The notes below the pieces were generated by a model. The model had not been told where the DNA came from, did not search any database, and saw only the letters and a program-made list of their open reading frames with translations. Source: Beroe forskalii (lineage: Eukaryota > Ctenophora > Nuda > Beroida > Beroidae). Taken from it: a DNA stretch of 64,000 nucleotides. A program made the translations under genes and the position numbers. The DNA lies in NCBI GenBank assembly GCA_011033025.1, contig WFMF01000017.1:310001-374000 (forward strand). Direction: 5' to 3'. Below are positions 4,070-63,637 of the stretch, one piece after another; the stretch's first letter is position 1; each line of letters opens with the position of its first letter.

Positions 4070-4672
4070 GGGAGGTAAGTAGTCCCAGCTTTACTCTGAT
4101 CCTGGCTCTGAAACCAGTTCTGAAAGTCTGAAGAGGGCAAATTTCCATTAGGAGCAGTCAAAATATGCTGTCAGAACAGCAAAAAGCAATCACAGTGACT
4201 TTTAGAAGTCAAAAATTATTAGACCAAGTTAATTAAGGATGCAAAAAATGAAACTTTCGTTTTTTCGCTCAAAATTTTTCTAAGTCCGAAAATTTTCTAA
4301 GTGAAAAATTTTTCAAAATATTCTTAAAAACCACTTTTTTCCACGTTTCAGGTAATTGTGATCATTTTTAGCCATAAAAAGTTTTTTAGGATTTTTGAAA
4401 ATTACCCAATTAGCTAATTGGTCAATTAACTAATTATCTGACAAAAAAGTTGTCAGAGAAAAAGTTGTTCCCCTTGATGAGATAGATACTCTGGTTCAAT
4501 TCTGAAGTCTCTATGACCATCAGAAGTTGAAATAATCAGGTCTCATAATACCGCCTGAGGGCAAAAATGGGCGTGGCCATATCACCCCTCAGGACGTCGA
4601 TTCATCGAACGGCAGCAAGTACGTTTTGTTCAGCATGGTCTAAAGTACCGAAAACCGTCGAGAAACCTTCTG
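4070..4672 (-). repeat. Right arm of foldback, high-identity part
   Basis: This is the reverse complement of 1492-2102, with about a dozen substitutions over 600 bases. It runs straight into the GC-rich minisatellite at 4673. Confidence 0.85.
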
Positions 4673-4840
4673 ACCCCTCGTGCGCGCCCCGACTCGCGGA
4701 ACCCCCTTGTCTGACCCCCTCGTGCGCACCCCGACTCGCGGAACCCCCTTGTCTGACGTCGTCAGACCCATTATTTCAGGGGGTCAGGCAACGCCTGACA
4801 AGTCTGACTCCTCGTGCGGGCCCGACTTGCGGAACGGGGC
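4673..4840. repeat. Second block of the GC-rich minisatellite
   Basis: Two to three units of the repeat seen at 540-883 begin directly at the foldback terminus. A perfect GTCTGACGTCGTCAGAC palindrome interrupts the block near 4751-4767. Confidence 0.8.
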
Positions 4841-5676: not shown

Positions 5677-8600
5677 CTATGCAGAGATGATCTATAATAA
5701 AGTTTAGATGAATGAGTGAATTTCATACTAGAGCATCACAGCTGAAATGGCACGGAAGATCTGACAATGGGACATGAGGGTAACAGATTGCAATTTAAAC
5801 CTTTAAAAAGAGAACTAACGTTGCGGCGAGGAGTATTCTGAAGAGACATCCTGTGAGCAGGAGCACTCCCAGAGAGAGGAGAACGCCAGACACCGCCACA
5901 CTCAGCCCCCGCTGCACTGACTCCCCCGGGGAGGAAGGGGAGGAAGAGGAGGAGGAGGAGGAGATACTACCAGACACGTGATCTCCCACTGAGTCACCAG
6001 TCAAGGGCTGTCGCTCCACACTGTCCACAAACATTGAAGACTTATTTAATATTATCACTTAATCACACAAATTGGCGTGTATTAATAACCAAATAACGAT
6101 AAACATTCATACAGTAATTGTCTCACTTTATACTTTTATAGGTTACAGAAAGCTTTAAACTTAAAGAATGATCTAACGCGGGGTTAACTTTAAGGTTAAA
6201 CAAGAATTGCGTCTGCCGGTGCCTTGTTTTCCGTTGTTCCCGTATGCAGGCGCTTAATTTCCCTCTCCTATGTGCTTGATTAAACGCGCACATGCACGTG
6301 GGCGATTGATCGGTCCCGATGCATTGCACGTGACAAATTCTACGCGTGCACAATCACCAAAATTCGTATAACTCTTTGAAGATTCGTTTGTTGCGCGTCG
6401 TTCCCAGTTTCATGAACAAGGGATTCATTTTTGTTACGCGTTACATGTACTTTAGAGGCGTAAGACGAACACGCACACAATATAGAGCCCTGCGAGAGCA
6501 GGGCTCTATATGATATTTAAATGTCGACAGTACAGCGGAGCTGGAGACATTTAAATGATTTAGAGTGCGAGGCGAAGCGAAGCTGAGCCGAGTGCTCTAA
6601 ATCATATTTCTGCAGTGAGTTTGAGCCTCAAAAGTACTATAGTAGTCGAACGGTGTTCAAAAGACACACCCTGTACACAACAAGCACACATTACCTTATA
6701 TGGTAATAAGCAAAATGCTTGTTTACACATAACAAAAAAGCGCATAACTGAGCCGTCTTTTGAGCAATTTTGATCAAATTTTCAGGATATTACGGGCAAC
6801 ATATGACCACTATAATGCTAGAGTAGCTAACATTTTTGGCCTTCAGAAATTGAGATATCTTAAATAAACCGGTTTTATGTTTAAAAGTTATCGCTTTATA
6901 ACTGGCTTTTCGGTCATAACTCCGCTTCTGGAGCTCAAAAATGAATCTAAACTTCACTGAGATGTTGCTTTTATGAAGCTCTAGATATCCTGAAAGTTTC
7001 ATCAAGTTTGCTCGAAAAACCTCGGAGATATGCACATTTTTGTAACGCAAAAGCAAAGGTCGCATAGATTTGTATTTAAATTGGTATTAAATAACAGTGT
7101 GTCATAACAAACACATGAAATAAAGCGCGTGTGGTAACACGACTCTACGCATATAGTACAACCCTTGTCGTGAGACTACTACATCATTTAAATGTCTCCA
7201 GCTGCGCTGTCGACATTTAAATATCATATAGAGCCCTGCTCGCACAGGGCTCTATATTGTCTGCGTGTTCGTCTTACGCCTCTAAAGTACATAAAGCGTT
7301 TAATCGTCAACTCATCCTGTCTGTAAGCGAGACGGACAATAGTCGACAGGGTGTTTAAATGAAGGCATGCTTCAATAACAGTCAAGGGGAACAGGAAATT
7401 AAGCGCCAGCATTCGATCAAATTGGAATTCTTTGAAAAAGTATCCAATCAATTAGAATGGCAGTGTTTAAAACTTGCGAACGAGGTGCTGCGTAGCAGCG
7501 CCGAGTGAGCTGTGTGTTTGCAGGCCCAATGGGCCAGCTAGTCATTTTATATTTTGCAAAAAAAGAAAAAAATCTTACACCATTTGTGGAAATTTCTCCC
7601 CCATTTTTAATTTTAGAGATTTCTCCCCCATTTGTAGAGATTTCTCCCCCACCCGGGCACTTTTCAGAATTAACAGTACGGATAAAGGTAGTATACACAA
7701 ATTCTCCCACAATCCTTCAAAACACGATCTCTGCTAACCCTCTCATTTGCCTTTTTGTAAAACAAAAACGCAATTGGAGAGGGAAAAATTGGTTTGAAAA
7801 GGTGACTATGATTTTTAAAAAATAAGAAAAGTGATGTGAGTTTGTGAGTAACCGGAGTCCGTAGTTGTACTTTGTGAGAAGGAAACAGAATAATATGCAT
7901 TGAAAAGTTTAAAAAGAGACAAAAACAAAACACTAGCGTATTTCTACATTCAAACCTCGAGAATTGAAAAGCGTGCTTGGTAACAGACCTCTTAAGGAAG
8001 TCTGAGTCGGCGTCCCCAGCAAAGTTACAAGGGGTGTCCTCCCCCTGCCGCCCTGTCTGAGGTGGCGTGTAGGTGGCGTCAGGTGGCGTGTAGGACATGA
8101 GGGCGTTGTAGGACTCCTGCAGCAACACATACTCAGCTGCTTTACTGCTCTCTCCAGCGTGCAGGTCCGGGTGGCACTGCGGTGAAAAGTGTAGGCGGTG
8201 CCGGGTGGCACTGCGGTGAAAAGTGTAGGCGGTGCCGGGTGGCACTGCGGTGAAAAGTGTAGGCGGTGCCGGGGGGCACTGCAGTGAAAGTGTAGGCGGT
8301 GCCGGGTGGCACTGCAGTGAAAAGGCAGTGCCGGGTGGCACTGCGGTGGTGAAAAGTGTAGGCGGTGCCGGGTGGCACTGCAGTGAAAAGTGTAGGCGGT
8401 GCCGGGTGGCACTGCAGTGAAAAGTGTAGGCGGTGCCGGGTGGCACTGCAGTGAAATGTGTAGGCGGTGCCGGGTGGCACTGCAGTGAAAAGTGTAGGCG
8501 GTGCCGGGTGGCACTACAGTGAAAAGTGTAGGCGGTGACGGGTGGCACTGCAGTGAAATGTTTAGGCGGTGCCGGGTGACACTGCGGTAAAAAGTGTAGG

Positions 8601-11600
8601 CGGTGCCGAGTGGCACTGCAGTGAAAAGTGTAGGCGGTGCCGGGTGGCACTGCAGTGAAAAGTGTAGGCGGTGCCGGGTGGCACTGCAGTGAAAAGTGTA
8701 GGCGGTGCCGGGTGGCACTGCGGTGAAAAGTGTAGGCGGTGCCGGGTGGCACTGCAGTGAAAAGTGTAGGCGGTGCCGGGTGGCACTGCGGTGAAAAGTG
8801 TAGGCGGTGCCGGGTGGCACTGCAGTGAAAAGTGTAGGCGGTGCCGGGTGGCACTGCGGTGAAAAGTGTAGGCGGTGCCGGGTGGCACTGCGGTGAAAAG
8901 TGTAGGCGGTGCCGGGTGGCACTGCAGTGAAAAGTGTAGGCGGTGCCGGGTGGCACTGCGGTGAAAAGTGTAGGCGGTGCCGGGTGGCACTGCGGTGGCC
9001 GGGTGGCACGGTGCCGGGTGGCACTGCGGTGAAAGTGTAGGCGGTGCCGGGTGGCACTGCGGTGAAAAATGTAGCGGTGCCGGGTGGCACTGCGGTGAAA
9101 AGTGTAGGCGGTGCCGGGTGGCACTGCAGTGAAAAAGTGGCGGTGCCGGGTGGCACTGCGGTGAAATGTAGGCGGTGCCGGGTGGCACTGCAGTGAAAAG
9201 TGTAGGCGGTGCCGGGTGGCACTGCAGTGAAAAGTGTAGGCGGTGCCGGGTGGCACTGCGGTGAAAAGTGTAGGCGGTGCCGGGTGGCACTGCGGTGAAA
9301 AGTGTAGGCGGTGCCGGGTGGCACTGCGGTGAAAAGTGTAGGCGGTGCCGGGTGGCACTGCAGTGAAAAGTGTAGGCGGTGCCGGGTGGCACTGCGGTGA
9401 AAAGTGTAGGCGGTGCCGGGTGGCACTGCGGTGAAAAGTGTAGGCGGTGCCGGGTGGCACTGCGGTGAAAAGTGTAGGCGGTGCCGGGTGGCACTGCGGT
9501 GAAATGTGTAGGCGGTGCCGGGTGGCACTGCAGTGAAAAGTGTAGGCGGTGCCGGGTGGCACTGCAGTGAAAAGTGTAGGCGGTGCCGGGTGGCACTGCA
9601 GTGAAAAGTGTAGGCGGTGCCGGGTGGCACTGCGGTGAAAAGTGTAGGCGGTGCCGGGTGGCACTGCAGTGAAATGTGTAGGCGGTGCCGGGTGGCACTG
9701 CAGTGAAATGTGTAGGCGGTGCCGGGTGGCACTGCGGTGAAAAGTGTAGGCGGTGCCGGGTGGCACTGCAGTGAAAATGTGTAGGCGGTGCCGGGTGGCA
9801 CTGCGGTGAAAAGTGTAGGCGGTGCCGGGTGGCACTGCCGGGTGGCACTGAAAAAGTGTAGGCGGTGCCGGGTGGCACTGCGGTGAAAAGTGTAGGCGGT
9901 GCCGGGTGGCACTGCGGTGGCGTGTAGGCGGTGCCGGGTGGCACTGCAGTGAAATGTGTAGGCGGTGCCGGGTGGCACTGCAGTGAAATGTGTAGGCGGT
10001 GCCGGGTGGCACTGCGGTGAAAAGTGTAGGCGGTGCCGGGTGGCACTGCGGTGAAAAGTGTAGGCGGTGCCGGGTGGCACTGCGGTGAAAAGTGTAGGCG
10101 GTGCCGGGTGGCACTGCAGTGAAAAGTGTAGGCGGTGCCGGGTGGCGGTGCCGGGTGGCACTGCGGTGAAAAGTGTAGGCGGTGCCGGGTGGCACTGCAG
10201 TGAAAATGTGTAGGCGGTGCCGGGTGGCACTGCAGTGAAAAGTGTAGGCGGTGCCGGGTGGCACTGCAGTGAAAAGTGTAGGCGGTGCCGGGTGGCACTG
10301 CGGTGAAAAGTGTAGGCGGTGCCGGGTGGCACTGCGGTGAAAAGTGTAGGCGGTGCCGGGTGGCACTGCGGTGAAAAGTGTAGACGGTGCCGGGTGGCAC
10401 TGCAGAGTGGCGGTGCCGGGTGGCACTGCAGTGAAATGTGTAGGCGGTGCCGGGTGGCACTGCGGTGAAAAGTGTAGGCGGTGCCGGGTGGCACTGCGGT
10501 GAAAAGTGTAGGCGGTGCCGGGTGGCACTGCAGTGAAAAGTGTAGGCGGTGCCGGGTGGCACTGCAGTGAAAAGTGTAGGCGGTGCCGGGTGGCACTGCA
10601 GTGAAAAGTGTAGGCGGTGCCGGGTGGCACTGCAGTGAAAAGTGTAGGCGGTGCCGGGTGGCACTGCAGTGAAAAGTGTAGGCGGTGCCGGGTGGCACTG
10701 CAGGAGTGGCGGTGCCGGGTGGCACTGCAGTGAAAAGTGTAGGCGGTGCCGGGTGGCACTGCAGTGAAAAAGGCGGTGCCGGTGGCACCGGGTGAAAAGC
10801 AGGCGGTGCCGGGTGGCCCTGCAGTGAAAAGTGTAGGCGGTGCCGGGTGGCACTGCAGTGAAAAGTGTAGGCGGTGCCGGGTGGCACTGCAGTGAAAAGT
10901 GTAGGCGGTGCCGGGTGGCACTGCAGTGAAAAGTGTAGGCGGTGCCGGGTGGCACTGCAGTGAAAAGTGTAGGCGGTGCCGGGTGGCACTGCGGTGAAAA
11001 GTGTAGGCGGTGCCGGGTGGCACTGCAGTGAAAAGTAGGCGGTGCCGGGTGGCACTGCAGTGAAAAGTGTAGGCGGTGCCGGGTGGCACTGCAGTGAAAA
11101 GTGTAGGCGGTGCCGGGTGGCACTGCAGTGAAAAGTGTAGGCGGTGCCGGGTGGCACTGCAGTGAAAATGTAGGCGGTGCCGGGTGGCACTGCGGTGAAA
11201 AGTGTAGGCGGTGCCGGGTGGCACTGCAGTGAAAAGTGTAGGCGGTGCCGGGTGGCACTGCAGTGAAAAGTGTAGGCGGTGCCGGGTGGCACTGCGGTGA
11301 AAAGTGTAAGCGGTGCCGGGTGGCACTGCGGTGAAATGTGTAGGCGGTGCCGGGTGGCACTGCAGTGAAAAGTGTAGGCGGTGCCGGGTGGCACTGCGGT
11401 GAAATGTGTAGGCGGTGCCGGGTGGCACTGCGGTGAAAAGTGTAGGCGGTCGCCAGCACCGGGATTTGGGAATGTGGCAAGCTTAGATCTATAGAAAATT
11501 TATGTCTTTATGTAATTCATTCCATTTCCCTTGTTTAGCACATAAAGGCATTTAATTATTCAACTAAAAAAACAGGGGTACGGACCTCTTTAGCTTTCTT

Positions 11601-12669: not shown

Positions 12670-12838
12670 TCACTCATGATTTGTGTTCGGAGCTTTAACT
12701 TCCGGTGAAGAAATAGAAGCACTATCGAAGTCCTCATTAGTAACTTTAGTAGGCTTCCGCTGAGCTTGCTCCTTCTTAAAGACTGCCAACTTTTCACTGT
12801 ACTCCCTCTTTGCGGCGAGGTACTCCGCCCGTTTCTTA
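12670..12838 (-). CDS. Receptor-like gene, coding exon 8 (C-terminus)
   Basis: The acceptor is aacttatttctacag. It reads [20 protein letters not shown] to KAPNTNHE, then TGA. Its acceptor and first four bases (TAAG) are the core of the neighbouring minisatellite unit. Confidence 0.8.
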
Positions 12839-15800
12839 CTGTAGAAATAAGTTACATGACTCAAAACAGATAAACACACCAACTTACTGTTGAAATAAGT
12901 TACATGACTCAAAACAGATAAACACACCAACTTACTGTTGAAATAAGTTACATGACTCAAAACAGATAAACACACCAACTTACTGTTGAAATAAGTTACA
13001 TGGCTCAAAAACAGACAAACACACCAACTTACTGTTGAAATAAGTTACATGACTCAAAACAGATAAACACACCAACTTACTGTTGAAATAAGTTACATGA
13101 CTCAAAACCACTCAAAAACACATAAACACACCAACTTACTGTTGAAATAAGTTACATGACTCAAAACCACTCAGAAACAGATAAACACACCAACTTACTG
13201 TTGAAATAAGTTACATGACTCAAAAACAGATAAACACACCAACTTACTGTTGAAATAAGTTACATGACTCAAAACAGATAAACACACCAACTTACTGTTG
13301 AAATAAGTTACATGACTCAAAACAGACAAACACACCAACTTACTGTTGAAATAAGTTACATGGTGTACTCAAAAACAGATAAACACACCAACTTACTGTT
13401 GAAATAAGTTACATGACTCAAAAACAGATAAACACACCAACTTACTGTTGAAATAAGTTACATGGTGTACTCAGAAAACCACCAAATTTTACTGTAAAAA
13501 AACACACATGGTGTACTCAAAACAGACAAACACACCAACTTACTGTAGAAATAAGTTACATGACTCAAAACAGACAAACACACCAACTTACTGTTGAAAT
13601 AAGTTACATGGTGTACTCAAAAACAGATAAACACACCAACTTACTGTTGAAATAAGTTACATGACTCAAAAACACTCAAAAACACATAATGTGGGTGTCT
13701 GGGGTGAGAGTGGGAGATACCCTCTGATTTATCAAGCAATACGTCTTACACTTAATTATTTCAAACGAATATCCAAACTACCTGAGAGCACATTTATCAA
13801 AGCTGCACTGTGTGAACAAAAAGCATTAAATCTCCCTTGGTACAAAAACATTGAACCCCTTTTAAAAATTGATGAAATTTATCACCAAGATCACGTAACA
13901 GCGTCGCGTGTGTTAAAAAATCCAAATTTCAAACCAAAAATTGCGCCAAATGGCCAATCAAGAACTCAACCGCTACCAAGTCGCAAATTCCGTATACAGA
14001 CTATAGTAAAGTCACTTACTGAACACTTCACTAATTGCTGGGAATATGAAAAATCGGAATCGTCCAAATTATCATTCTATCATGCATGCAAGAAAAAATT
14101 CGCGAGAGAACCATATTTAGATATATCAAAGGGTTTTTCACGAAGATATAATACAACCAAATTCAGAATTAGTTCTCATGATCTGGAAATAGAATGTGGA
14201 AGATACAATAACGTACCGAGAGAAGCGCGTATTTGTTCATGGTGTAACACATCAATGGGTGTAAACGTGGTAGAAGATGAGGCTCACGCAATCAATGACT
14301 GACCTTTATGGTAGCCTGCGCAATAAGCTTATCACGAGACTGAATAAAGCCCCGGGATCTCAATTTCACGTGCCCATTAACCAACCCTCAACTTAAAACT
14401 CACTTTCACACTCTTCTATCACCATATCATGTCTTGACAAACCCGGACAACCACAGCACATTTAACGAACATCACACAGTCACTCAAACCGGGGATATCT
14501 TACAAAATCAGAGACGCGAATACATAATCAACTGTATGTGCACGTTTTTATGCCATGTCATAGAAACCAGACGCAAATATATCAACGAGTTAAAAGAAAA
14601 AGAGAACCGAGCAAACACACTCACTATTTATATAGCAAATGGCATATCACAAAACTAAAATGAAGGTAAAAATGGTGTGCCACATTCCGTCACTTATGCA
14701 CTGATTAACAATTCTCATACCTTACTCTTACACATTCACATCGGTTTGATTTCACTGCCAAATCTACAGGGTTGGAAATATCCTGCATACTGGGCCTCAC
14801 CTATTCACAGCCTATGCCCCAAGACTCGGTCACACCTCAGCACAGTAGTGCCCTACGATAGATTATCACCCTACAACCCTGTGTGCGAGGATTAATGCTA
14901 ATACAGATGATTATAGTATTGTGCCGAGAAGTCACACCCATTATCTAACGTCGAAAGAAACGTGAGAAATCACCTAACGTGAGAAATCACTATTTTATTC
15001 AACTAACGTGGGATTAAACTGCTCATATGAAAAGTGTGATGATAAAGTTAACTTTTGTGTGCGTTTCACCCAACCGAATCGACTTTCAAATAATAGGTTA
15101 ACGAAATGGTTGACGAATATTCTTAATTCTCAGACAATATGTTTATGGTTCAAATTGCTAGGAAGAGATAACTGTGAAATGATGAAATGGATTTCAAACA
15201 GCTATTGACAATTTGTGTGACTTTGTTTATCATAACCGATATGAACAATGAAAATATTGTGAGATTTTAATTTTTGATATCAGGATATTATCAAATATGA
15301 AAATATATGAGACAGGAAAGACTTTTACATGAAATAAAGGATGATGTTTGTTGTTGTTGTTATTGTACAATATAACAACCAACGTTAGTTGGTTGATATT
15401 TTATATTAAACCTTGTAAAACCTTGTAAACCTTGTAAACCTTGTAAACCATAAACACACCAACTTACTGTAGAAATAAGTTACATGACTCAAAACCACTC
15501 AAAAACACATAAACACACCAACTTACTGTAGAAATAAGTTACATGACTCAAAAACACTCAAAAACACATAAACACACCAACTTACTGTTGAAATAAGTTA
15601 CATGACTCAAAAACAGATAAACACACCAACTTACTGTTGAAATAAGTTACATGACTCAAAAACCACTCAAAAACAGATAAACACACCAACTTACTGTTGA
15701 AATAAGTTACATGACTCAAAACCACTCAAAAACAGATAAACACACCAACTTACTGTTGAAATAAGTTACATGGTGTACTCAAAACCACTCAAAAACAGAT

Positions 15801-18800
15801 AAACATACCAATTTTTCTATTTTTGAGTGTTTCTGAGTGTCACCACCACCAAGATTTAGTTCAGACCATGAATATAAAAAGGGCCATAGATCGTTTACCT
15901 ATAAGTACAACCATTGTCCAGTTCTAATTCTAGTTACATTTTGTAGATACATCTTATTGACGAGATACTGGCCTAGACGGATCGCTCAATTTACCGAACT
16001 ATCGAGAGTATTGGGGATGAAATTTTCACATTTTCTAAGTAGTTGACAACACGGATAGTGGAGATTGCAACTGCATAGTCCAGAAAGTCATCCAATTATT
16101 TAATCCACAATTCACCTCATCTCGATCCTAAGTAAGTTGACGTCAGACTGCCGGAGAGGTCTCTGCTCACTTGTCTCCTCTTGAGGTATAGAACGATGGG
16201 AAATGATGATCATTTCTCTTAATAAGAGCATTAGAAAATATATCTAAAATCATAGAATTAGCATTGACTCTGCTTGAGAGAAGTAGAAGCCATCTACCGA
16301 CCTATCTCAAGAGCTTGAAGTTGAGACCATATATTTATAACTCATACGGTCGTATAAAAGTAAACCAATGACCCCTTGGTGACCTCTACTGACCCTTTTT
16401 ACTACTTAACTAATTAAAACTGAGACTGAAAAGGATTTGTCGAAGTATGATTGACACCGAGAGGAGTTATACGAATATTTCTCTCCATGTCCAAGTATGT
16501 CAGGGAATACCTGGATTCTGACGAGGGGGTCGTCGCAAGGTGGATTTCTTTTACCAGTTAATTCAGCAACTCATGAAGAGTTTTAAGTTAACTTACATGT
16601 ATCCGGCACTCGGCAGGGGCTCTGAAGGGCCCGATATCTCGGTTACTCGCACCAGCCTCCCCTTGCTCTCATCCCAAACCAGCCTGTGAGTGTCGTCCAA
16701 TGGTTGGCTGGGCCTTTCACTGACACTGCACGGGTTATCATTTCGTGAAGTTGACCCATGTAATCGGGCCGGGATAAAGGAAGGATGCTTAAAATAAACT
16801 TTGATATGTACAATGTACGATGTACTGTGCAGTATACAGGTTGTAATGATACCTTAAAACACTATAAAGTATACATTTCACACCTGAGGTCGGAGTAAAC
16901 ACCTCCCCACCCGGAGCTAATGGCTCGTCTAGCGGCTGCCATGTGACCTGCCATAGTCTTCGTCTTGTTGTGTCTGCCCGTCTCCAGATCTTCCTTCGTT
17001 CTGTACATTTCAAGGAACCTATTATCAACCTATTATGTAGTATGTAATTATTTAGTCAAAGTTTCATTCATATCGTCAAGGTTCCAATCTGTAATTATAT
17101 AAAAATTGTGTTTGATATCCCTAATTTCTTCATATATTTTAACATTTTAACTTTTTTTAATCATCAATTAATATGGGCACATTTACTATTTTTATCTACA
17201 TACTACAGTACAGAAGTGTTGCAATATGATCAACCATGTCTCTATAATGATAATTTATTTCTCGGCTTCTATGATTATCATAAAAATATGATTTGATTGG
17301 TATAATTGTAGGGGAACACTGTTATTATGGCTAAGCTGTGTTGTGTTCCCCAAGTTCTATGTTGCATTAATAGGTAGGAAATTTTGAATAGTGTTATTGT
17401 ACATATTATTGCAATCCCAGTGGAATAATTATAAAATGTGGCAGGGAATGAGGATTTAGATGGAGAAAAATGTTTTTTTTGTTTAGCGGCGTCTATTCAG
17501 TCGTGATTTTATATATTGATCATGTGGAATTACATATCTTCACTACGCAACATTACACGATTAATTTACAGAGTTACAGCTCTACACATACAAATGAAAT
17601 AATGCAACGTGACTTTCTTTTCACATTGTGCAACGTGCACGCATGATTTAAGTGTTTCAGGACAAAATAGTAAGTATTATTTTGTGGCGCGCACACACTC
17701 GATGATTAACTAATTGCTTTATACACATATTCCGTGTACAAAGCAATTAGTGTAATCATCGAGTGGTGTGCGCGCCGCGCGCGCAGCGCACAACTTACCT
17801 TATTAAATTAAGCTCGGGACTCTGGTGCATAACGCAGAGACTAGAGAGCTGAATTACAATTTATACTATCATGGTGTCTTAATCAATCAATTTAAATGCC
17901 TTTCCGAGTCATTAGAGATTTCACTATCGTCTATCCAGACCATGATCTCGACGTCGACCTTACTATAACATTATTTCGGACCATATCATTATTATAAAGG
18001 AAAGAGGCACTTCTACGTTTGTGTATGAATAACCCAAACGCCGAAGCTAAAAACGTTGAAATCCCGCAATTTTTTGCAGGCGGTAGAAAAATAAACTTAA
18101 AAGATAGCATTAAAAATTATTTGAATTTAGGATTTTTCCGTAAATAATGCTCAAAGTTGAAAAGGAATCGCGAAAAAACAATATCGAGTTCAAGATTTAA
18201 TTCACCAGTTGCGCGCGTCGTTATGGTGATTGGTGATTATAGCGCGCAAAAACTGCACGTGCATTTTAACGAAGAATCTGCCATTTCGTTACTGTGTACT
18301 TTGGAAACGTTTCAACTGTTTTAAGTCATAATTTACGTTCTCAATGGAATTTTCGAGTTTGGTAAAAAATTTCAACAGAAGGCTATCAACTCTAATCACT
18401 ATTGTAGGAGAAAAGGTAAAAGTTGAACAATTTGTTCCATTGAGAAAATCATCGATAATTCTTTCATATATCAAGATATTAATTGTAGTTTCGATGGTGT
18501 GCTGCGAGGATTCGACAGGAGGAATTCATATTGACTCAAGTGAGAAGTGGGTTCTAAACAGATGAAAATGCGGACAATTTTGACTTCAATGATGAGTTTG
18601 GATTCAAATCTGTTGCCCATCTTTTCTCCGAATCTGAACTTTGGATTATGAATAATAATAATAATAATAATAATGTTTTGGCAGCTTAGCCAACTCAACT
18701 CTTACATAAAAACTCTAAATCTACCCCAATTCCAAATCATACTGTAGATTGTTATTCAGTTTGGTGATTAACAAACAAATCAGTGGACCTCTCATACTTC

Positions 18801-27800: not shown

Positions 27801-30800
27801 ACATGCATAAGGCATGTTGATTCAAAGCATCATAATCAAAATGTTCTCTAATGTATATTTGATAAATTTTCAATTGGTTGTAATATTAAAACTTTTCTTG
27901 AAAAAAAAGGTCTTCAGTTTGTTCTTAAAAATCCCAATATCAGTACATTCTTTCAGTTCAGATGGGAGGTTGTTCCAAAGAGTAGGCGCACTAGAAGTGA
28001 AAGATTGATTACCAGCAGCTGATTTAAATGAAGTCTGTTTAAGTGTTGGAGTGCGACTTCCACTGATGTTGTTGTATTGCAATGTATCAGACAAATAGGA
28101 TAAAGCAAGACTATTCACGCATTTGAATGTTAACAAAATAACCTTGAATTCGATTCTCTCCTGAACTCTTAGCCAATGCAACTCTTGAAGATGGTCATTG
28201 ACAGATTCAGTTTTCTTGAGTCCAAGGAGGATCCTACAAGCACGATTTTGTATCATCTGTAGTTGCTTCATGTTACTTGAACTGATCCCATAATACAGAG
28301 AATTGCAGTAATCAAGACTGGAGAAAACAAGTGCATGAATAAGAGTTTCACACTGATTCTTGGTGAGGAATCGTTTCATTGCTGCAATTTTTCTCATCAA
28401 TTTTTCTTCGATTTCATTATTGAGATGTCATACTCAGTTTAGAGTCCAGAGTAAATCCTAAACTTTTTGCAGTTGAAACAAATCTAATACAAGTTGAAGG
28501 AGTTAGGAATGTCCCATGAATTTTCAGTTCAGATAGAAGTTTGGGCTTGCCAAAGACAATTATCTCAGTCAATGGCAGTGAAACATAATGTATGTATGTA
28601 TAGTAGTCTCACGACAGGTTTAGACCGATTTAGAGGGTAGTACTATCTGCGTAGAGTCGTGTGCTACACGCGCTTTATATCCACTCGCGTGCGCTTTTTG
28701 AAGACATTTTAGGTAGCGGGCGCGCGCGGCCCGGTAAAATATCTGCACGCTAAATTTGATATACCCACCGGATATAGCCCGGCCCGCGAGAGCAGTTCTG
28801 TGTCGGTTGCAATATAGCCGCCTCTTGGAAGAAAATATTTTTTGGTGCTTAACCGGCTGAGATCATTGAAAGTGTCCACAATAACAATTTTAGCAGCAAA
28901 ATATCGATCATGAGGCAAAAACTGGCAAATAGAAGGATTTTTGTGGAGTTCATTATCGACAAAAACATCGAGGCGATGGAAAGTTAAGAGTCAAAACACT
29001 GAAACTGATATTCATCATTGTTCTGCAGCTTACTGAATCATGAAATTATGAGAAGTAGTTCAACTTCAAAATAGAATTGGATTAAAAATTGACAGCAAAA
29101 CAACATAGGTATCGATAATTAATAAATATTCAGCAAAATATGTGGCCAACAGTAGACAAAAGTCGAGTCAAATATCAGAGAAAACAGTGAACTGCAGTGA
29201 TAGCAGTGATAGCAGCAATTCTGTAAAATTCTGTAAAAGCAATCATTCCGAGAAAGAGAAGTAAAAAGATACAAAATCAAAAACGAGAGAATGAAATACA
29301 ATATCATGAAATAAAGTTAGGAATTTGCATTTGTGTTGATCATTAATTGCATTGCCATGTTGTCATGGTTACACATTCTTCGGAAATAGCAAGAGGTGAG
29401 TGAGAGCAATACGTCATTATCATTAGTAACAATGGTGCATTATTTTTTCTCACACACAGCGGATACGATGTAAAATAAATGCCGCCTAATTACCGCGACA
29501 CTCTGATACATTGTGCAACTTCTCATGAGAAAAATTTTGAGGGACACTTTATTCTATTGACTTACCATATTCAACCATGGTAATTACGTCATTCTCATTT
29601 GTCTACTATTATAACAGTGCTGCAGAGTTTCACCAAATGTAAATACACTCATTTTAACCCATTTTTTCATCGTTTTGTATCTCCTTTCAAGTTCTGCTGT
29701 AACTGATGCGTTTCACAAAGTGACATGCTACCATTTTCCCCTTTGTTCGTTTTTCCGATTATTGTTTGTTTTTCCAAGATTGCTAGTGTTTTAAGTTTAA
29801 TAAACAGCATCTAACCACAATTTTAGCCAATAATCCTTCGATTGCAAGACCATTGAGATTGATCCATGCTTTGATTTGATTCGCCTTTAAAATTTTCGCC
29901 CTCGGACCCTTCTGGCCCTCGGGCTCATAACTTCTACATAAGCTTTACCAACCCCTTCGATCAAAATTACTTACGGTGCTTAATCGTGTTTGTATTGCAT
30001 TTGTGAAAAAATTAAATTTTTGTTAATTAGAGAAAAAAACTCAATATTATTGTTGCAAAACCTTCCTGTGTGTTCAAATCTTCGAGGATTTACTTGAACA
30101 TTCAACTTTTTTCATCTTAGATATGCCATTCTCCCAAAAAGCTCACGCGAGTGGATATATACCATATACTCCTCGCCTCATGGGCTGAATTTCGTATAGC
30201 ACTCGGGCTCTTCGAGCCCTGCGTGTTATACGATATATCCCACTGGGCTAGCGCCCTCGAGGGATATATTTTCTGTATCGCGCATGCGCGTGCGATATGA
30301 AATTCAGCCCTAGAGGCTGCGGGTATATGTATATATATCATGTGTTTGTTATGACACACTGTAATTTAATACCAATTTAAATACACATATACGCGACCTT
30401 TGCTTTTGCGTTACAAAAATGTGCATATCTCCGAGGTTTTTTGAGCAAACTTGATGAAACTTTCAGGATATATATGGGCAAATCCACGAAAACGAGGAAA
30501 AATTTTGAAATTTGAAATCATCAGTCCAGCAAAAAGTTTTGACTTCAAATGAAAGCTAAGACTTTCCTCTAAATGATGCAAAAAACCGCATCAAAAAATA
30601 TTGAAAGACCTCGACGATTTGCGCGATTGAGTAAGGGCTACTTTTGGACAATGTTCAGCCTCAATTAATGGCATTTTGAATTATCATAAAGAATGCTTAT
30701 ATTTGTAATCAAGGGAATAATTTTGCTTAATAGTGGACTTTTGATCTAGTTTGATTCATATTTTAATATGAAAACTCGCTCTCTAACTATTTTGAAGTGA

Positions 30801-51077: not shown

Positions 51078-52040
51078 AGGTCAGGAGAGGTTAACCAAGG
51101 GGTCAGGAGAGGTTACCCAAGGGATCAGGAGAGGTTAACCAAGGGGTCAGGAGTGGTTATTGGTTAACCAAGGGATCAGGAGAGGTTAACCAAGGGGTCA
51201 GGAGCTGGTTAACCAAGGGGTCAGGAGAGGTTAACCAAGGGGTCAGGAGTGGTTATTGGTTGACCAAGGGATCAGGAGAGGTTAATCAAGGGGTCAGGAG
51301 AGGTTAACCAAGGGGTCAGGAGAGGTTAACCAAGGGGTCAGGAGAGGTTATTGGTTAACCAAGGGGTCAGGAGCTGGTTAACCAAGGGATCAGGAGAGGT
51401 TAACCAAGGGGTCAGGAGAGGTTAACCAAGGGGTCAGGAGAGGTTAACCAAGGGGTCAGGAGAGGTTATTGGTTAACCAAGGGGTCAGGAGAGGTTAACC
51501 AAGGGGTCAGGAGTGGTTATTGGTTAACCAAGGGATCAGAAGAGGTTAACCAAGGGGTCAGGAGAGGTTAACCAAGGGGTCAGGAGAGGTTAACCAAGGG
51601 ATCAGGAGAGGTTGACCAAGGGGTCAGGAGAGGTTAACCAAGGGGTCAGGAGAGGTTAACCAAGGGGTCAGGAGAGGTTAACCAAGGGGTCAGGAGAGGT
51701 TAACCAAGGGGTCAGGAGTGGTTATTGGTTTAACCAAGGGATCAGAGAGGTTAACCAAGGGGTCAGGAGCTGGTTAACCAAGGGATCAAGAGAGGTTAAC
51801 CAAGGGGTCAGGAGTGGTTATTGGTTAACCAAGGGATCAGGAGAGGTTAACCAAGGGATCAGGAGAGGTTAACCAAGGGGTCAGGAGAGGTTAACTAAGG
51901 GGTCAGGAGGTTAACCAAGGGGTCAGGAGCTGGTTAAAAGAGGGGTCAGGCAAATGTAACCAAGGGTCAGGAGAGGTTAACCAAGGGGTCAGGAGAGGTT
52001 CATCAGGGGGTCAGTAGAGGGTTGCCAGGAGTCAGAGAGT
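51078..52040. repeat. 21 bp minisatellite with a 28 bp variant
   Basis: The main unit is GGTCAGGAGAGGTTAACCAA plus GG, and the longer form contains GTGGTTATTGGTTAACC. About 40 units are present, degenerating at the right end. Confidence 0.93.
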
Positions 52041-62113: not shown

Positions 62114-62209
62114 TTGTTTTGTGCAGGGATATTTTAAGTTTTAGAAGGGTATTACGTGCTATAGTGTAGTCAGAGTTAGTGGTAGTGAGTAACGAGTTTG
62201 AGTGTTGAG

Positions 62210-63637
62210 ATGGCTACCATTACGAAGTTGAGGATGGAGATAGACGATCTGACTCAGAGGAAGGAGTTGCTAGATCAGAACGATGAGGATTACGCTGAGA
62301 ATCTGGATAAGGTGGCGACTGAAATCGATGAAAAGGTTGATCAGTTGATCGCCTTAGCACAAGATCTCGAGCACAAGTTGGCTTGTCAGCCACGTGCGAG
62401 TAACATTGCGGAAAAGCAGGAAGGAAGTTTTAGTCCCGTTGAACCTGGTACGAGTACTCCAGTCCGTGGTACTAGTAAAAATCTCTTCCCGTTGCCGAGA
62501 GATGAAGCTGATCAGGCGAATGTTGATGTGACTGGTATTTCTCAGAAGACAGACAAGCTGAAGCTTGTTAAGATCGCCAAACCCCAGTCGTTTAACAAGG
62601 GTGATAACATAGATGTTTTCCTGGAGCAGTTCGAGCGCTTCATAACTCTTGGTAACTTCAGAGACCAGAATCTGGATTTCTACTTTCTGTCCTTGATTAA
62701 GGATGAGAAGATGTACATGAAACTCCGCTCAGTGAAGCTCTCACGTCTTGAGAAGTCTCATGCCGGGTTGCTGGTTGCAGCTTACAAGAGAGTTCTCTAC
62801 CCGGAAGCTGAAGTTATTGCGTTGAGGAACAGTCTTGCACTGTTGAAGCAATCTGATGGCGAGTCGATTGAGGAATTCTCGTTGAAGATCGAACGTCTTG
62901 TGGAGAAGGTGTACCCTAATGAGCCGTTTGGGCCACAAGCTGCCCTGACCACCTTCCTCAACGGGCTCATGGATGTAGAGGTTAAACGAGCTGTGCTACA
63001 GAAGTCGCTGAAAACATTCCGTGAGAATGTGGATGAGGCTGTGAAGGTCGATAAGATAAACAAATCTTTGGCGGAGTCCTCCTCTTCTGGCTCAAACTTG
63101 GGAAGTAGCGTTGAGAACCATGTTGGTTCAGTAGAAGTGATGAGGGTTAATAGCCAAGAGTCTGTGAGTGGACCACGTCCCCGTTGGAACGTGGCTGGGA
63201 ACGTAACTTCTGATCCATCTGTAGATGGTAGGCATGCTGTCGCAGGTGCCGATACTTGGAGACCCCGATTTCCTTCCGGTGGGTTTCGTGGCAGATACAG
63301 TGGTTTTAGAGGAGGCTATCGCAGTAATAACCGTGGTTATAATCCTGTGGGGTATAGGAACAACTTTAGACCGAATTATGGTTACAGGAGTCGTCAGAGT
63401 CCATACTCGGATGCGTATAACAACTCGAATTATGGTAGGAACCAACATTATAACGGGGGTTATTATCGTAACAATAATCGCGATAGTGATCGTGGTAATT
63501 TCAGAGGTGTAAATGCTGTAAATCAGAGTAATAATCAGAGTTCATATCGCGGTAACGTTGATTATCAGAGTAGGAACGCTGATGGTTTAAACTACACAGG
63601 GGTTCAAGGAACGCAGCTACCTCGGATGCCCCAGTAA
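62210..63637 (+). CDS. gag: LTR retrotransposon Gag
   Basis: The product is 475 aa; I chose the ATG at 62210. The Glu/Lys/Leu-rich N-terminus (residues 1-58) looks coiled-coil. About 120-270 is a retrotransposon Gag core (FNKGDNIDVFLEQFERF, EEFSLKIERLVEKVYP, LTTFLNGL). The last 130 residues are rich in Arg, Gly, Tyr and Asn with many RG/RGG steps, and I see no CCHC zinc knuckle. The RG-rich tail probably replaces it in RNA packaging. The frame is intact, suggesting a young copy. The stop lies 82 bases after the pol frame opens. Ty3/Gypsy is likely but not proven without the polymerase. Confidence 0.88.
   Translation: MATITKLRMEIDDLTQRKELLDQNDEDYAENLDKVATEIDEKVDQLIALAQDLEHKLACQPRASNIAEKQEGSFSPVEPGTSTPVRGTSKNLFPLPRDEADQANVDVTGISQKTDKLKLVKIAKPQSFNKGDNIDVFLEQFERFITLGNFRDQNLDFYFLSLIKDEKMYMKLRSVKLSRLEKSHAGLLVAAYKRVLYPEAEVIALRNSLALLKQSDGESIEEFSLKIERLVEKVYPNEPFGPQAALTTFLNGLMDVEVKRAVLQKSLKTFRENVDEAVKVDKINKSLAESSSSGSNLGSSVENHVGSVEVMRVNSQESVSGPRPRWNVAGNVTSDPSVDGRHAVAGADTWRPRFPSGGFRGRYSGFRGGYRSNNRGYNPVGYRNNFRPNYGYRSRQSPYSDAYNNSNYGRNQHYNGGYYRNNNRDSDRGNFRGVNAVNQSNNQSSYRGNVDYQSRNADGLNYTGVQGTQLPRMPQ

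Follow-up and report, generated by a model that had tools for sequence, protein, structure and literature searches.

The DNA analysed here is a stretch of 64,000 nucleotides from the ctenophore Beroe forskalii (contig WFMF01000017.1, positions 310,001 to 374,000 of the forward strand), referred to as the window. It contains, on the minus strand, a gene for a J-domain protein and, in the second intron of that gene, a 34-bp minisatellite that runs across the 3′ splice junction (Table 1). The gene model comprises five exons, with all borders GT-AG and a single unbroken frame of 247 codons, and its predicted product carries a DnaJ domain with the HPD motif (Pfam PF00226, E 6.9e-12). Across the join of exons 2 and 3, KKAKE|CHPD, the product aligns without gaps to the J-domains of solved structures, e.g., PDB 6iws (E 3e-6), and because of this alignment the acceptor of exon 3 is placed at 8177/8176, a position fixed by homology, not by RNA. 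The original prediction had given the donor of this intron as 11586, which holds as the exon border, this being the last base of exon 2, with the donor GT itself starting at 11585. Just two homologues were found among 5.8 billion proteins (E ≤0.001), one named bacterial and one unnamed, covering 20–22% of the query, so that there was no related species to compare; an Rfam scan of the window returned nothing at gathering scores.

A 34-bp unit made of intron end and exon start

Tandem Repeats Finder (TRF) calls the array with a period of 34, 97.0 copies and a score of 3534, or alternatively with a period of 102, 32.3 copies and a score of 5504, in agreement with the roughly 95 copies that had been proposed for 8177..11450. 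On the minus strand the unit reads TGCCACCCGG-CACCGCCTACACTTTTCACYGCAG, its junction form being ...cacttttcacYgcag|TGCCACCCGG. As anticipated, it is an acceptor followed by the first bases of the J-domain exon: 24 nt come from the end of intron 2 and 10 nt from the start of exon 3. When two substitutions are allowed, TGCCACCCGG is matched 101 times, the true exon start at 8176 included, and 78 of the 100 units upstream of this start measure exactly 34 nt. Between 11427 and 8176 there are 95 AG|TGCC sites, all ten exon bases being intact at 92 of them; the figure of about 95 given in the original prediction is right, and the decoys proper number 94. In the unit nearest the exon, which forms the real junction, the sequence is ...cacttttcaccgcag|TGCCACCCGG, after which ACC stands in place of CACC. 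With a single array unit left, intron 2 would be about 160 nt long, the remaining introns of the model being 181, 1968 and 124 nt.

The unit is nearly invariant. Among the 78 units of exactly 34 nt, to which these counts refer (the 22 of other length were left out), two positions are polymorphic, one located five bases before the exon (35 C and 43 T) and the other within the pyrimidine run (10 A and 68 T), and only 10 further substitutions are found. Seven of these 10 fall in the 10 units at 8210–8615, near the exon, although the two exon-adjacent units are perfect. The variant sites are distributed over the units in irregular order, so that the units are not exact copies of each other.

No copy of the unit was found elsewhere in the assembly, so that the closer match outside the locus, which would have refuted the original prediction, did not appear. 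The 22-base junction core CACTTTTCACYGCAGTGCCACC (one ambiguous base) gives 65 exact matches in the 216-Mb genome, all 65 within the array, and its reversed control gives none genome-wide; a separate search for the unit, whose counts are lower bounds, found the array locus as the only place. These results bear on the idea that a minisatellite already in existence came to lie beside the exon, the ten shared exon bases being due to coincidence or conversion. The contig that holds the window (C214) is rich in arrays, 80 in 144 kb (39 with at least three copies), and some units do recur, such as a 22-bp unit (GGTCAGGAGAGGTTAACCAAGG) at window 51079–52035 that is also found, as reverse complement and with the same flank, at C214:385534–386585. 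The 34-bp unit, however, is confined to the J-protein locus, the shared bases encode His-Pro, and other genes show the same relation of array to junction with other units (see below), which makes a landed minisatellite scarcely credible.

Table 1. Features of the J-protein gene, its neighbour and the other junction-spanning arrays (window positions unless prefixed with C214)
Feature	Position	Strand	Basis or remark
Exon 1 (MIRCSLAFRYKALPFAR), putative start	11910–11861	minus	phase and GT-AG only
Exon 2, first part of J-domain, C-terminal end ..KKAKE	11679–11586	minus	donor GT at 11585; phase, GT-AG, J-domain alignment
Intron 2, 3409 nt	11585–8177	minus	gene model
34-bp minisatellite across 3′ splice junction of intron 2; 94 decoy AG|TGCC and the real one	8167–11450	minus	TRF, pattern counts
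True acceptor AG of exon 3, within last array unit	8178–8177	minus	gene model and J-domain alignment
Exon 3, 188 nt, start TGC CAC CCG GAC (Cys-His-Pro-Asp)	8176–7989	minus	donor AAGAG|GTCTGT; J-domain alignment
Exon 4, hydrophobic stretch, possible membrane helix (by eye)	6020–5801	minus	phase and GT-AG only
Exon 5, including stop codon	5676–5485	minus	phase and GT-AG only
Terminal exon adjoining second array (T AAG AAA CGG GCG GAG ...)	12670–12838	minus	phase fits upstream exon ending at 16597; coding score
Second acceptor-spanning array, neighbouring gene, 48-bp unit ending ..TAACTTATTTCAACAG|TAAG	12835–13674	minus	TRF, unit pattern
Dispersed element inserted in second array	~13675–15449		genome matches
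Further units of second array, beyond the inserted element	15450–15811	minus	TRF, unit pattern
SUMF2-like acceptor array, 34-bp unit ...GCACTAAAACCGCAG|GATTGTACGATATGAT	C214:260372–260842		real acceptor C214:260827
CDC27 acceptor array, 27–31-bp unit ...CGTGACCCCCTCAG|GTTCTGAAC	C214:269244–269664		real acceptor C214:269656
CDC27 donor-spanning array, other end of array-bearing exon, unit GGCTAAG|GTAAGGGC..	C214:269885–270085		loci L060/L061

Reading frames opened by the decoys

Use of a decoy would lengthen exon 3 at its 5′ end, not add separate exons; the repeat-encoded exons suggested in the original prediction are thus replaced by extensions of the existing one. When translation is followed from every one of the 95 acceptors, the true site and 28 decoys, 29 in all, remain in frame into exon 5, whereas 35 run into a stop codon in the array (32) or in exon 3 (3) and 31 into one in exon 4. 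The share of in-frame decoys, 28 of 94, is close to the one-third expected by chance, the other 66 shifting the frame.

On the minus strand all three frames are open for 981 to 1270 codons, spanning the whole array or most of it, and this might suggest that the array is translated, with exon 3 starting at the first unit (11427) and the repeat forming a long coding repeat. This openness follows from the repeated unit being free of stop codons, and a start at 11427 would lengthen the exon by 3251 nt, a number not divisible by three, and would break the frame, such frames stopping in exon 4. Since, in addition, so few decoys are in frame and an insertion before HPD would split the J-domain, we consider translation of the array very unlikely.

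Functional use of the alternative acceptors, for example in the manner of a dial by which a share of the transcripts is diverted to decay or gains repeat-encoded blocks, would draw on the frame-shifting majority of the decoys and on the stop codons in the consensus units of the second, SUMF2-like and CDC27 arrays described below. On the other side stand the in-frame share at about chance level and the AG itself, which is not seen to be better kept than other positions, nearly all of them being invariant; in addition, splicing is reported as undisturbed by the mirage repeats of lancelets (PMC3087553). A function of this kind appears improbable.

Junction-spanning arrays in other genes

The organization of the J-protein array is not singular and recurs in other genes. 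Within 144 kb of C214 there are four acceptor-spanning arrays, in the J-protein gene, the neighbouring gene at window 12835–15811, a SUMF2-like gene and CDC27, and one donor-spanning array, also in CDC27, so that both types of boundary, 5′ and 3′, are affected in this genome. The array of the neighbouring gene contains 22 acceptor units, the real one included (up to two substitutions from the pattern). The element inserted in it (query 13800–15200) has 42 matches in the genome, its own copy included, among the 40 of 68 candidates that were scored, several at 96–98% identity. The protein of this gene gave no protein family match.

For the other two genes the splice joins are supported by homology. 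The SUMF2-like exon alone matches PF03781 (7.2e-7) and PDB 1y4j (7.5e-11); the exon preceding the array lies at C214 259427–259567 and ends in ..NSY plus one base, and a second copy of the gene lies on C480, where the two exons give NSYG-LYDMIGN when joined, their alignment to sulfatase modifying factor 2 being gapless at the join (PDB 1y4j, 1.1e-34). Three joined exons of CDC27 (..AHIAV|VLNAMKR.., ..FLKAK|IHRKMG..) align to CDC27 without gaps over 145 residues (PDB 4rg6, 4.1e-49). The exon-adjacent copy of the CDC27 donor array reads AAG|ATAGGG, against AAG|GTAGGG in a second copy of the gene (~C214:244026), and the first donor looks broken.

The second copies allow array lengths to be compared beside conserved exons. 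The two copies of CDC27, at C214:268592–270085 and C214:242111–244131, are about 26 kb apart on one contig and represent either a tandem duplication or two haplotypes joined one after the other. The second has 41 acceptor units (up to one substitution; 32 exact) and the first 13, their array-bearing introns measuring 1593 and 946 nt, respectively, while the 204-nt exon differs at four sites, each a third codon position, and encodes an identical protein. The SUMF2-like gene has six acceptor units (up to two substitutions) in the second copy against 14, and its exon differs at four of 154 sites, of which, by our own count, three are third positions. Both pairs may be alleles or paralogues.

The survey behind these comparisons covered 277 kb (144 kb of C214, 33 loci of 2.4–3.2 kb and three 10-kb pieces of C411) and yielded 133 arrays; three of the 33 loci overlap stretches of three others and were left out of the edge counts. 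Coding-like flanks, judged by a score trained on 30 J-domain stretches only (cut-off 2.5, the SUMF2-like exon lying just above it), were found at 13 of 199 edges of acceptor type and at 8 of 192 of donor type. For arrays with at least three copies the numbers are seven and two. The seven acceptor-type edges include the four confirmed arrays; of the remaining three, judged by reading, two prolong a frame that is open within the repeat itself and the third precedes a start codon.

At 30 other DnaJ loci, of which L029, L038, L045 and L048 were read in part and the rest as TRF tables only, a single acceptor-spanning array was found, with about three copies, in the DnaJ gene of L048 (C190). Its three copies of a 113-bp junction unit lie at ~1840–2150 of the minus-strand reading. 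The unit starts at an acceptor, ...CAG|GGAAATGAGGAAGAGGCACACAG..., and includes about 40 nt of the J-domain exon, and the last copy runs into GNEEEAHRVYQTIQEAYDCLSDPQ, which is J-domain sequence, the exon being judged by eye.

Several further repeats were noted in the course of the survey. A candidate at L038:2420–2496 consists of two copies of a piece with TTTCAGAA, and in the same locus (C261) a 28-bp array at 1334–1465 ends just upstream of an apparent DnaJ start codon. The exons at the candidate sites C214:265325 and 257380/258905 are without protein family support. Within the window, intron 3 of the J-protein gene holds an element (6445–7280) with inverted ends around gagccctgc..gcagggctc, and pieces at 28599, 30334, 32083, 44691 and 47105 match the same C411 stretches as this element. 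A similar 41–42-bp unit (TCTGACCCCCTCGTGCGC..) occurs in two arrays, at 542–879 and 4669–4757, and an open frame of 482 codons at 62189–63637 shows a weak match to Retrotrans_gag (24.0 bits; cut-off 24.1).

Origin of the array and comparison with known systems

The structure of the 34-bp array, its uniqueness, the recurrence of such arrays at other junctions and the length differences beside conserved exons in the sibling arrays are very probably explained by a "mirage"-type minisatellite, which arose by tandem duplication across the splice junction and is tolerated since the last copy keeps a working site. Such a duplication had been put forward in the original prediction, and it is supported by the exon-side bases encoding part of His-Pro-Asp, by the absence of the unit from the rest of the assembly and by the gapless join of exons 2 and 3. 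The exon would have come first and the array second, because the ten shared exon bases encode part of this motif.

For the mutational origin of the array and for the use of its last acceptor (8177/8176), we infer the following course. The first tandem duplication would have taken in 24 nt at the end of intron 2 together with the 10 nt that open exon 3, and unequal exchange or slippage may have expanded the product to about 95 copies. These steps would be near-neutral: after any duplication an intact acceptor would still abut the coding exon, so that the cost may have been small. Splicing would require no copy other than the one at 8177/8176, the upstream copies then being intron. It would probably be chosen by exon definition, as the acceptor nearest to the exon 3 donor, with occasional leakage to nearby units.

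Several observations weigh against this explanation. A mark that would distinguish the last acceptor was looked for in the local sequence and in predicted pairing, and none was found; 44 nt around the true acceptor are identical to those at the decoy at 8210. The A of the acceptor is in fact predicted to be more strongly paired at the true site than at the average decoy, with an unpaired probability of 0.24 against a decoy mean of 0.78 in 80-nt windows and of 0.30 against 0.74 in 150-nt windows. The unit has a single yUnAy-like motif, TTCAC, positioned 6 nt upstream of the AG of the same unit and 40 nt upstream of the following AG, so that branch-point use is in question; one may speculate that the branch point of one unit could serve the AG of the next. 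Finally, a second copy of exon 3, on C411, extends with small indels as far as the acceptor region, where a gap of ~9.4 kb follows; it contains no second unit and is silent on array length.

Masking of the decoys by a hairpin was also considered as a mark. Downstream of the decoys stands GTGCC-ACCC-GGCAC, with a folding energy of −6.9 kcal/mol in isolation; its right arm is missing from the true exon. In 80-nt windows AGTG has a predicted unpaired probability of 0.02 at the true site and averages 0.01 over the decoys, 11 of the 94 being as open or more; in 150-nt windows the values are 0.004 and 0.001, with three of 94 as open or more. Predicted pairing does not separate the true site from the decoys, and hairpin masking was rejected.

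The C411 copy, which ends in a gap at the acceptor and has small indels near it, could also point to an assembly artefact, with a wrong repeat number or a misbuilt array. This is highly improbable given the irregular order of the variant sites in units that are not exact copies, and the presence of similar arrays at other junctions that are far shorter and easier to assemble.

Beyond this locus, we tentatively propose, with slightly more doubt than confidence, that minisatellites repeatedly start from splice junctions, chiefly from acceptors, in an animal genome seemingly outside Bilateria, where introns would lengthen through duplication of their 3′ ends and the spliceosome would reliably ignore up to about 94 near-identical upstream acceptors. 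The array of L048, on a contig other than C214, raises the standing of this proposal. If it is true, these genes are natural tests of the choice among equal acceptors, and mirages would be far older or more widespread than lancelets. Acceptor competition is usually studied with few sites, whereas here about 95 near-identical ones lie in one intron, accompanied by sibling arrays. If the last copy is always used, a rule by which the first AG after a fixed upstream branch point is taken cannot hold here, and the decision must lie with exon definition or with branch-point position. In addition, the arrays illustrate how introns can lengthen stepwise without harm to the exon, and they hint at an occurrence of mirages outside lancelets.

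Comparable arrangements are known from other systems. In C. elegans, the available text of PMC4039745 describes CeRep25B minisatellites that, as here, are intronic, lie near splice choices and are linked to alternative splicing; these are intronic motifs, and copies of splice junctions are not described for them in that text. A likewise junction-crossing duplicated segment has been described for an intron 1/exon 2 junction, with the branch site, polypyrimidine tract and 3′ splice site included in it. That single duplication made a new intron, whereas the numerous copies found here are all contained in one intron, with no sign of a new one.

The closest parallel is provided by the mirages of amphioxus, tandem repeats across exon–intron boundaries described for Adh3 and for the globins BflGb6 and BflGb9 (PMC3087553). 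Boundary repeats in Adh and troponin C, and similar repeats in PGBD5, are mentioned in PMC3902484. In the publications consulted, repeats called mirages were found for lancelets only; in PMC7960049 "mirage" names a transposon class. According to PMC3087553, the amphioxus repeats affect both 5′ and 3′ boundaries, many units carry AG/GT signals, copy number varies among haplotypes, evolution is concerted within the arrays with less homogenisation of the boundary units, Adh3 is somatically unstable, and RT-PCR suggested that regular splicing is undisturbed. The two systems are alike in that a minisatellite spans an intron/exon boundary and its units carry splice signals. They differ in the host, in size, with about 95 units here against six and three in the two BflGb6 haplotypes, and in the clustering of four acceptor arrays within 144 kb. 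As to the host, an Antennapedia-class homeodomain finds 18 matches in this genome, the best with E 1.3e-10 at 44% identity and the highest identity being 56%, on a piece of 36 residues; the Hox genes of a lancelet should match far better, and 216 Mb is also small for a lancelet assembly, so that the genome is probably not that of a lancelet. The class is thus already known in lancelets, and what is new here is the host, the size and the clustering in neighbouring genes.

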